Assembly: GCA_902567045.1 (NCBI GenBank)
Contig: CACFLJ010000002.1
Location: 62,001-126,000, forward strand
DNA: 64,000 nt
Reading direction: 5' to 3'
Source of the DNA: an uncultured Pelagibacteraceae bacterium
Lineage (GTDB): Bacteria > Pseudomonadota > Alphaproteobacteria > Pelagibacterales > Pelagibacteraceae
In this document: one piece after another, positions 25,197 to 26,867 of the stretch
Layout of the letters: every line of letters starts with the position of its first letter
How positions within the stretch are numbered: position 1 is the stretch's first letter
The notes under the pieces: generated by a model
What the model saw: only the letters and a program-made list of their open reading frames with translations
Told to the model about the DNA's origin: nothing
Databases searched by the model: none
Made by a program: the position numbers and the translations under genes

Positions 25197-26627
25197 TTAC
25201 TTCAGTTTCCACGTAACCACAGGTAAAAGTGTTGCAACAATAAATGAACAGAACAACAAAGATTGTGAAATTAATATTGGAAAAAAATCAGCAGGTAATA
25301 TTATTCCTACAAGTATGGATTTTGAGAAATCGGGACTAGGAAATAATAGAATTCCACCAATTAAACCAATTATAATTGAAATATAAGCATTTTTTTCATT
25401 ATATGATTTTGAATAAAAACCATAAAATACACTTAACACCGCTGCACAACAAAATAAATCAGCTAATAAAAATAGATATAAAATACTTAATCCTTTTGAA
25501 GCAACAAAAAATGAAATCAAGGATAAAAATATTATAATTTGTTTAGATAATTTTAAATAATTACCCTTAAATTTTATAACTTTATTTCCATCAACAATAA
25601 TCAAACTAGAGATAGCATTTACTAGTGTATCTATACTGCTCACTGTCAGTGAAATTGCTAAAATAGTTATTACTATTGATAAAAAGATGGCTTGGTCTTT
25701 TAACAATAAAGAAAAGAATGCAAGGTCAGGAACTACGCTTGGATTTTGAGAGGTTGCAACTAAACCTGAAAAGCCCATCATGAATACTATTGGTATAATG
25801 ATTATAAAAGAAACTATTAAGCTATTTTTTAAAACTTTATTATTTTTAGCAGCATAAACTCTTTGCCAGTTACCTTGATGAAAAAGATTTGTTGCTGCAA
25901 CAGCTATAAAAAAAGTTAGGCCTGCAGTAAAATTAGGTAAATAACCTGAACTTAATAAATGAGGCTTGTTCTGTTTTACAAACTCAAAACTAAAGTCATT
26001 AGAATTAAAAGAAATTAAATAAGAAAATGCAATTATTAAGAGCAAACCAAAAACTATAAATTGTATATTATCTGTGAATATTGAAGCTCTAAGCCCTCCA
26101 TACAAAGTGTAGACAAGTGAGCTGACAATTACAATAGATGCCGTGATCCATAGATCAGTTCCTGAAATATAATTAATCAAAATTGAAACGGCGGTAACTT
26201 CTGCTATTAAAAAAATAGTCATATAAAAAATTGATAAAAACAAAATTAATTTAAATAATTGTGTGCCAAATCTAGATCTAATTACCTCAATTAATGATTT
26301 TCCTGTTGGATATTTATCTCTAAATTTTTTTCCTAAATAAATTAATGCAAAAAGAGGAAATGCTGTCCCTAAAGAATATCCAATAACAGCCCCTACTCCT
26401 CCCCAGGTTGCTGCTGATGCGGGACCGAATAAAATCCATGCTCCAAGGGCAGATGCAACTAAACTAGTTGTTAGTGAAAAAGTTCCTACAGATCTACTTG
26501 CAACTAAATAATTGTTTAACCCTTGATATTTTTTTGAATATACAAGGCCAAGTATTACAAAAATGATACTAATAATTAAGGTTAATAAAATTGCAGATGA
26601 TTGATTTAAGATGTTTATCTGATCCAT
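25197..26627 (-). CDS. thiV: SSS-family transporter under TPP riboswitch, probable thiamine-precursor (HMP) importer
   Basis: A 476-residue sodium:solute symporter with about thirteen TM helices. N-terminal NNYLVASRSVGTFSLTTSLVASALGAWILFGPAS is the family's first broken helix. A TPP riboswitch directly precedes the start codon, so expression falls when thiamine pyrophosphate is abundant. SAR11 strains lack pyrimidine (HMP) synthesis, and ThiV, an SSS protein placed behind a TPP riboswitch, has been proposed as their HMP importer. Substrate is thus from context and family knowledge. No thi biosynthesis gene is in the window. Confidence 0.85.
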   Translation of the reverse strand: MDQINILNQSSAILLTLIISIIFVILGLVYSKKYQGLNNYLVASRSVGTFSLTTSLVASALGAWILFGPASAATWGGVGAVIGYSLGTAFPLFALIYLGKKFRDKYPTGKSLIEVIRSRFGTQLFKLILFLSIFYMTIFLIAEVTAVSILINYISGTDLWITASIVIVSSLVYTLYGGLRASIFTDNIQFIVFGLLLIIAFSYLISFNSNDFSFEFVKQNKPHLLSSGYLPNFTAGLTFFIAVAATNLFHQGNWQRVYAAKNNKVLKNSLIVSFIIIIPIVFMMGFSGLVATSQNPSVVPDLAFFSLLLKDQAIFLSIVITILAISLTVSSIDTLVNAISSLIIVDGNKVIKFKGNYLKLSKQIIIFLSLISFFVASKGLSILYLFLLADLFCCAAVLSVFYGFYSKSYNEKNAYISIIIGLIGGILLFPSPDFSKSILVGIILPADFFPILISQSLLFCSFIVATLLPVVTWKLK

Positions 26628-26630
26628 TTT

Positions 26631-26697
26631 TCCCTTTCTGAATTACCGGACAGGTTCATTGGGTATTTCTCAGCCTATAGGCACCCCATGAGTAATT
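26631..26697 (-). promoter_or_regulatory. TPP riboswitch (THI element), compact
   Basis: Read on the minus strand, the THI-box pieces occur in order: GGGGTGCC (26687-26680), CTGAGA within GGCTGAGAAATACCC, GAACCTG, then CCGGTAATTCAG. The P3 arm is cut to a CC-TATA-GG mini-hairpin, smaller than in enterobacteria. The AAAGGGA ribosome-binding site of thiV lies at its 3' edge, so control of translation is likely. No separate terminator hairpin is visible between it and the gene. Confidence 0.92.
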
Positions 26698-26842
26698 ATT
26701 AATATCAAATAATAAATTTGTAAATAGTTATTAAAGTTAACGTACAATAATCGCATAGCTATTATTTACTATAAGCGCTTCTAATATACGACTAATGCTG
26801 TATGTGTTAATTTCTCTCTCTTATTATAAGTTAATTATAATA

Positions 26843-26867
26843 CTAGGCTTCGCAGATTGAAGCCTAG
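26843..26867. other. Unassigned stem-loop in the thiV/thioredoxin spacer
   Basis: A perfect 9-bp stem CTAGGCTTC / GAAGCCTAG with a 7-nt loop (GCAGATT), followed on the plus strand by purines and then a short T-run. It lies in the 337-bp divergent gap 26628-26964, of which only the riboswitch part is explained. No gene on the plus strand runs into it, so it is not an obvious terminator. It may belong to a small RNA or to the thiV leader. Confidence 0.4.

Follow-up and report, generated by a model that had tools for sequence, protein, structure and literature searches.

A SAR11 variant of the TPP riboswitch ahead of thiV that appears to have lost the canonical pyrophosphate sensor

The window analyzed here is a stretch of 64,000 nucleotides from an uncultured Pelagibacteraceae bacterium. 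On its minus strand lies thiV, preceded by an RNA element related to the TPP riboswitch. The features of the gene and of its upstream region are the following.

25197..26627, minus strand: thiV, a sodium:solute symporter of 476 amino acids and proposed HMP importer (Pfam SSF, 68.8 bits; literature)
26625..26627, minus strand: ATG start codon of thiV, the first in-frame start in the list of open reading frames
26631..26688, minus strand: variant aptamer of 58 nt, from the closing base of P2 to the A after AGGG (RF00059 match; homologous block in a 48-sequence alignment)
26695..26724, minus strand: possible promoter, TTTACA-18-AATAAT, with 6 nt between its end and P2 (consensus match only)

The ATG (26627-26625) sits 3 nt 3' of an AGGGA motif (26635-26631) that belongs to the RNA element. 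Upstream of the thiV leader, between divergent genes, positions 26843-26867 of the minus strand hold a 9-bp inverted repeat, CTAGGCTTC...GAAGCCTAG, with an AT-rich tail after it, and this stretch appears terminator-like in a consensus scan.

ThiV is an SSS-fold protein in a SAR11 thiamin context, with the Pfam SSF match given above and ThiV matches in 170 of the 247 genomes drawn from the order; its match to TIGR00813 falls below the cut-off of that model. It has been put forward as the importer of HMP, described as a growth requirement of SAR11 (an abundant group of marine bacteria), and HMP transport was reported to be likely for HTCC7211 (PMC11452348). In the genome of the window (86% complete), no ThiC was found. 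The matched stretch of ThiD (HMP-P kinase) reaches 291.9 bits and passes the NCBIfam cut-off of 204.95, and that of a ThiE homologue, at 143.8 bits, is just under the cut-off of 145.1. ThiD and ThiE families without a detected ThiC fit the expectation for an HMP auxotroph.

The link between riboswitch and transporter is already in print. Meyer 2009 (PMC2704228) lists SAR11_0811 of P. ubique HTCC1062 as preceded by a TPP riboswitch, which agrees, together with the proposed role of ThiV, with the original prediction of a thiamine-precursor importer. A putative TPP riboswitch at thiV was later noted in all SAR11 phylogroups, its ligand specificity and activity being described there as remaining to be confirmed (PMC11452348), and a predicted structure for the thiV riboswitch is provided in the supplement of McRose 2014 (PMC4260697). 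The element of the window is probably the same as the SAR11 thiV riboswitch of Meyer 2009, and the variant arm described below is present in three loci from Candidatus Pelagibacter ubique records. In the passages that treat the element in Meyer 2009 and in later papers, it is called a TPP riboswitch and the missing pyrophosphate pocket goes unmentioned; likewise, no discussion of the missing pocket or of P1 was found in the main-text passages searched of the SAR11 thiV riboswitch literature.

Using cmscan on 401 bases, RF00059 was matched at 26698-26614 of the minus strand with 44.8 bits and an E-value of 1e-7, and a search of the 1.18-Mb genome, where the window lies in contig C2, gives this match as the single one (E 7.1e-8). 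Homology to TPP-type riboswitches is thereby established, and a THI-box-like RNA does stand where it had been predicted. The score nevertheless falls short of the 54.3 bits that Rfam sets as its gathering score, which is the threshold for membership of the family. For this reason, a default Rfam scan of the window returns no match. With the limit set at E <= 1, cmscan of the element region yields, besides RF00059, only a match to S4-Flavobacteria below the cut-off of that model. In a draw of 61 related genomes, 44 were matched by RF00059 at E <= 0.001; the cut-off is attained by two matches only, each of them from the sister family f2, and by none of the 27 same-genus matches, which means that the element escapes default Rfam thresholds. 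The plain folding energy of the element is unremarkable (z -0.71). The reality of the element is founded instead on its covariance-model match and its conservation; the RF00059 E-value and this conservation rule out a chance THI-box look-alike.

The 5' part of the element corresponds to the P2-P3 arm of TPP riboswitches, including the UGAGA pyrimidine pocket.

26685..26688, minus strand: P2 5' strand, U GGG, pairing with 26663-26660
26660..26663, minus strand: P2 3' strand, CCC A, pairing with 26685-26688
26673..26682, minus strand: P3, GCC-UAUA-GGC, three pairs and a 4-nt loop (pairing in 165 relatives)
26668..26672, minus strand: J3/2 UGAGA, the pyrimidine-sensing T-loop motif, intact (alignment A1; role from PMC3764141)

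Pairing was followed in 165 distinct RNAs picked by the arm pattern, and in A1, an alignment for which 48 sequences were selected out of 115 distinct cores. Among the 165, the closing pair of P2 is standard in 146, with five pair types, and for the three pairs of P3 standard pairing is seen in 165, 165, and 164, where compensatory exchanges turn U-A into C-G. UGAGA is invariant in A1, whose members had also been selected by this motif. The optional P3a is absent from the element in the RF00059 alignment. P3 had been described as a two-pair stem and as the unusual part of a THI-box core otherwise present in full. It is in fact a GCC/GGC stem of three pairs with a UAUA loop that covaries normally, which rules it out as the anomalous part. 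What is unusual is the pyrophosphate-sensor arm and the absence of P1; the core lacks C77-G78 of J5/4 and a detectable P1.

Concerning P1, pairing in the canonical register concerns 43% of the cells in the 165 RNAs, compared with 40.5% (sd 1.3, maximum 45) when the 3' ends are shuffled. Over nine registers, z ranges from -3.4 to 2.5, with a slight excess (z 1.8) in the canonical one, and a weak P1 is possible in some members. In 156 relatives, -10-like hexamers are commoner just upstream of P2, an observation that is suggestive, considering that the background stretch may include coding sequence. A promoter-like site directly upstream of P2 would leave no room for P1, and this too is only suggestive.

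The 3' part of the element is where it departs from the family. The canonical arrangement CCUGAU-P5-CG(U/A)AGGGA is replaced here by CCUGUCCGGUAAUUCAGAAAGGGA, and the arm can be divided as follows.

26631..26656, minus strand: 26-nt arm, AACCUGUCCGGUAAUUCAGAAAGGGA, in place of the canonical P4/J4-5/P5/J5-4 (conservation in same-genus loci)
26652..26654, minus strand: P4 5' strand, CCU, invariant, pairing with 26635-26633
26651, minus strand: G equivalent to G60, facing A 26636 in a single mismatch, not in an open internal loop (covariance-model alignment; fold of the isolated arm)
26646..26650, minus strand: P5 5' strand, UC-C-GG, with C 26648 facing A 26639 (pair counts in A1)
26642..26645, minus strand: L5 UAAU, the canonical P3-docking loop, kept and invariant (role from PMC3764141)
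26637..26641, minus strand: P5 3' strand, UC-A-GA, after which the canonical C77-G78 is absent (covariance-model alignment; A1 pairs)
26631..26635, minus strand: AGGGA, made of the P4 3' strand (AGG) and GA, overlapping a Shine-Dalgarno-like sequence that would serve as ribosome-binding site

P4 with U59-A80, G60 and L5 UAAU are those of a TPP riboswitch, and CCUG, AGG, and UAAU are invariant in A1. By contrast, C77-G78 of J5/4 is gapped or replaced, the gaps of the covariance-model alignment falling on AU of J4/5 and CG of J5/4. Two alignments with the canonical arm, differing by one base, are possible (J4/5 is G or GU, J5/4 is A or AA), but C77-G78 is missing from genus g1 under either alignment; some arms of genera g8 and g9 retain a G that is possibly G78. 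As a control, J5/4 of non-SAR11 loci was read. CG is found in 25 and UG in one (L274) of 26 readable loci among the 27 best examined, L288 having been left out of the reading. C77 and G78 have indeed been described as being among the highly conserved bases of the TPP aptamer. In one account, G60, C77, and G78 bind metal on the pyrophosphate and G78 alone touches the pyrophosphate itself (PMC3764141), and in another both C77 and G78 are hydrogen-bonded to the pyrophosphate (PMC7824784).

Folding the isolated arm returns the same closed structure as its minimum. In A1, the first pair of P5, which closes the former loop, is U-A in 41 sequences, A-U in 6, and G-U in 1, and the top pair is G-U in 47 and A-U in 1. 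Between genera, the loop-closing pair thus covaries, U-A becoming A-U or G-U in g8 and g9, where the top pair also becomes A-U in a few members. Over the whole alignment, 96.7% of the cells are paired compared with 91.3% after shuffling, and 42 cells are changed on both sides compared with 13.3, the number of pairs with changes on both sides (5 vs 4.1 in shuffles) showing no excess. Within the arm, five of the seven pairs never vary, and covariation comes from two pairs and mainly from one change between genera. A competing hairpin of UCC with GGA of AGGGA was considered; by inspection, it is not kept in g8 and g9, where UCC becomes ACC or GCC. Genus g6 has a different closed arm that is also devoid of CG, and one g6 arm lacking C77-G78 scores 59.3 bits, above the Rfam cut-off.

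Selection by arm pattern makes the invariance of the arm partly a matter of construction in the 165 distinct RNAs and in the pattern scan of genome contigs, for which 19 positions were fixed beforehand. Two other sets were not picked by the arm, namely 28 same-genus loci (27 found through RF00059 and one through thiV) and the comparison of the thiV list with the arm list in the draw of the order. In the first, the 26-nt arm is identical at all 28 loci, where ThiV identity goes down to 62%; genome streamlining, offered earlier as the explanation of the compact RNA, fails on its own to account for such a block. In the draw of the order, the arm is exact in 134 of 137 same-genus places among the matches listed, the other three sharing one G-to-A change, and 13 of the matches listed, from g8 and g9, differ from it by 2-3 mismatches. 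Such constancy, next to the covariation of P3, speaks for strong selection on the arm. An arm within three mismatches occurs in 159 of the 247 genomes, and 156 have both arm and thiV (lists compared by eye). The 14 genomes with thiV and without the arm are four having fragments only (G122, G233, G221, G228), G206, two of g5, four of g7, two of g6, and G264, whose arm has a fourth mismatch. Three genomes have the arm without a thiV match (G110, G196, G247), and the locus of G110 ends inside an apparent thiV start. RF00059 found no match in the 13 genomes tested among the 19 same-genus genomes without thiV and arm. These 13 genomes (G071, G150, G160, G163, G009, G178, G181, G182, G193, G194, G195, G207, G022), devoid of both thiV and RF00059 matches, are 90-99% complete.

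The position of the element relative to the gene is as constant as the arm. In all 165 distinct relatives, a start triplet is located 2-6 nt 3' of AGGGA, and in 161 the first such triplet opens the thiV frame. Two of the remaining four precede an NMT1/THI5-like gene, L118 is cut off after 29 residues that look ThiV-like by eye, and the first ATG of L184 is out of frame. The NMT1/THI5-like gene is a second target. It is preceded by the g9 form of the arm, near position 1500, in G247 (L220) and G196 (L221), and the protein of L221, the only one submitted to the Pfam run, scores 90.2 bits. This protein has no obvious signal peptide and is possibly an HMP-P synthase; G247 and G196 show no thiV match.

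Canonical arms also occur next to the same gene. Arms with CG are found upstream of thiV or of its operon in g5, in g7, in G206, and outside the order (f17, f32), which rules out the argument that the presence of thiV alone implies a new ligand. In genome G143 of g7 (L261:779-1477), a Gcw_chp-family gene stands between the TPP element and thiV, and the two genes may be co-regulated. For the sister family f2, all 17 loci read have canonical arms; the one downstream gene tested is thiB-like, with 227 bits for TIGR01254 (cut-off 93) and 241.5 for TIGR01276 thiB, whose cut-off of 317 is unreached. In a ThiV tree of 39 rows, the rows with the variant arm and those of g6 form one group (100/97), except that the long-branched outgroup pair f32 is placed inside it at weak support (80/37). 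From these sequences, a single origin of the variant arm appears likely, and the simplest account would be that the pyrophosphate loop was lost once in the family, before the arm froze. The thiV of G206 (L306/L256), a genome of the window's genus, has 51% identity and groups with g7 and g5 on the tree, and its arm is of canonical type, as if thiV and riboswitch had been exchanged together.

With RF00059, the element thus shares P2, P3, the UGAGA pocket, P4, L5 UAAU, and a thiamin-pathway gene downstream. It differs in lacking C77-G78 of J5/4 and the J4/5 bases, in its undetectable P1 and sub-cut-off score, and in its arm, nearly free of sequence variation, where P5 closes onto P4 apart from two single mismatches. 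In the aligned sequences, the pyrophosphate-holding J4/5-J5/4 loop has given way to an almost helical arm, all the other parts just named being kept. What is new would therefore be a variant TPP aptamer, SAR11-wide in its spread, which departs from the family in two of its defining features as used here, C77-G78 of J5/4 and P1. We consider it probable that this is a cis-acting RNA derived from a TPP riboswitch that controls the translation of thiV, with the pyrimidine sensor kept and the canonical pyrophosphate sensor lost. It can be proposed that the P2-P3 pocket receives a ligand carrying the HMP ring, that L5 would then dock on P3 and P4 close, and that the closed P4 would hide the AGGGA ribosome-binding site. 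The importer would be off when the pyrimidine or the vitamin is plentiful, and the aptamer would be its own expression platform and its own off switch. Ensemble prediction for the RNA of the window does not yield P4/P5 (probability of P4 0.00 at 15, 20, and 37 C), and the mean gap between model structure and minimum free energy, 9-13 kcal/mol over the 165 RNAs, speaks against a stable unliganded aptamer.

This raises the question of the ligand. Published explanations of thiV control assume a TPP riboswitch, and the original prediction did the same; the homology and the position ahead of an SSS gene hold, but TPP as the ligand is an assumption, and one that is open if the pyrophosphate pocket is gone. 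The question can be directly addressed with the 58-nt RNA. TPP, held in another way, and HMP, HMP-P, HMP-PP, or thiamin, which do without the pyrophosphate of TPP at that place, appear to us about equally likely.

A substantial possibility, although short of a probable one, is that the element is an ordinary TPP riboswitch able to work with a shortened arm, other bases or metal ions holding the pyrophosphate, and that it represses thiV translation. TPP is the end product of the pathway, and published work proposes it as the ligand at SAR11 thiV (PMC11452348). The homology to RF00059 points in the same direction, since the RNA still scores as TPP, which is a point against an altered pocket, as do the canonical TPP aptamers found before thiV in sister genera. 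In addition, the UG of L274 indicates that the C77-G78 dinucleotide is not absolute. On the other hand, g1 is devoid of both pyrophosphate-contacting bases and of their layers, its loop is closed by a covarying pair, and tolerated decay is not expected to produce a 26-nt block identical in nearly all the same-genus places listed. Retention of TPP binding by another route is at least as defensible as a change of ligand.

More tentatively, the element may have become a variant class with a changed ligand, namely HMP, HMP-P/HMP-PP, or thiamin and not TPP, gating the provision of the vitamin's pyrimidine half. The combination of lost pyrophosphate contacts and a retained pyrimidine pocket points to ligands that contain HMP and do not need the pyrophosphate of TPP. 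The targets fit, 161 of the 165 distinct RNAs opening thiV and two an NMT1/THI5-like gene, with two unassigned, and so does HMP as a growth requirement (PMC11452348). In the sister family, it is a canonical aptamer that precedes thiB of the thiamin transporter, at the one locus tested. Elsewhere, however, thiV also accompanies canonical aptamers. Moreover, known TPP aptamers bind HMP alone poorly, which counts against a changed ligand. A new SAR11 riboswitch class, born of the TPP aptamer by closure of its pyrophosphate sensor and reading the HMP half directly, is accordingly put forward with reserve. In such a class, the P4 strand would itself be the ribosome-binding site, and the RNA would set the uptake of the vitamin precursor on which SAR11 depends.

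Finally, it is improbable that the element is a decayed riboswitch that no longer binds any ligand and whose 26-nt arm is maintained for another use, either as a translation-initiation hairpin or as a protein-binding site. In favor of this, P1 is undetectable, the RF00059 score is under the Rfam cut-off, and uptake is called constitutive in one sentence of PMC11452348, but the compensatory pairing in P2 and P3 would be needless for a mere ribosome-binding hairpin.

Among known systems, the element resembles the HMP-PP riboswitch (thiS motif; Atilho 2019) in being a thiamin-pathway switch whose aptamer overlaps the expression platform; the latter differs by its other architecture, its place inside a terminator, and its tie to thiazole genes (PMC6478431). 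The sister genera with canonical arms before thiV would provide a natural series for following the way in which a riboswitch may come to bind another ligand. Variant classes whose ligand specificity is altered, and in which a homologous scaffold carries changed bases in the binding site, were reportedly described by Weinberg in 2017, and the SAR11 element would be like them in principle.

The spread of the arm was also followed beyond the order. A model built from A1, run with strict filters, matched 80 of 385 genomes drawn from the class; scores are 79-88 bits in the three g1 genomes and at most 45.5 bits in the others, and the best matches outside SAR11 are ordinary TPP riboswitches. Spread of the arm by phages was considered, and the exact pattern has no match in a collection of viral contigs. 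Among named genome records, 118 of the 119 pattern matches listed bear SAR11/Pelagibacteraceae titles. A record titled Rhodospirillaceae (AG-919-A04; L147) carries the SAR11 arm, which may reflect misassignment or transfer.
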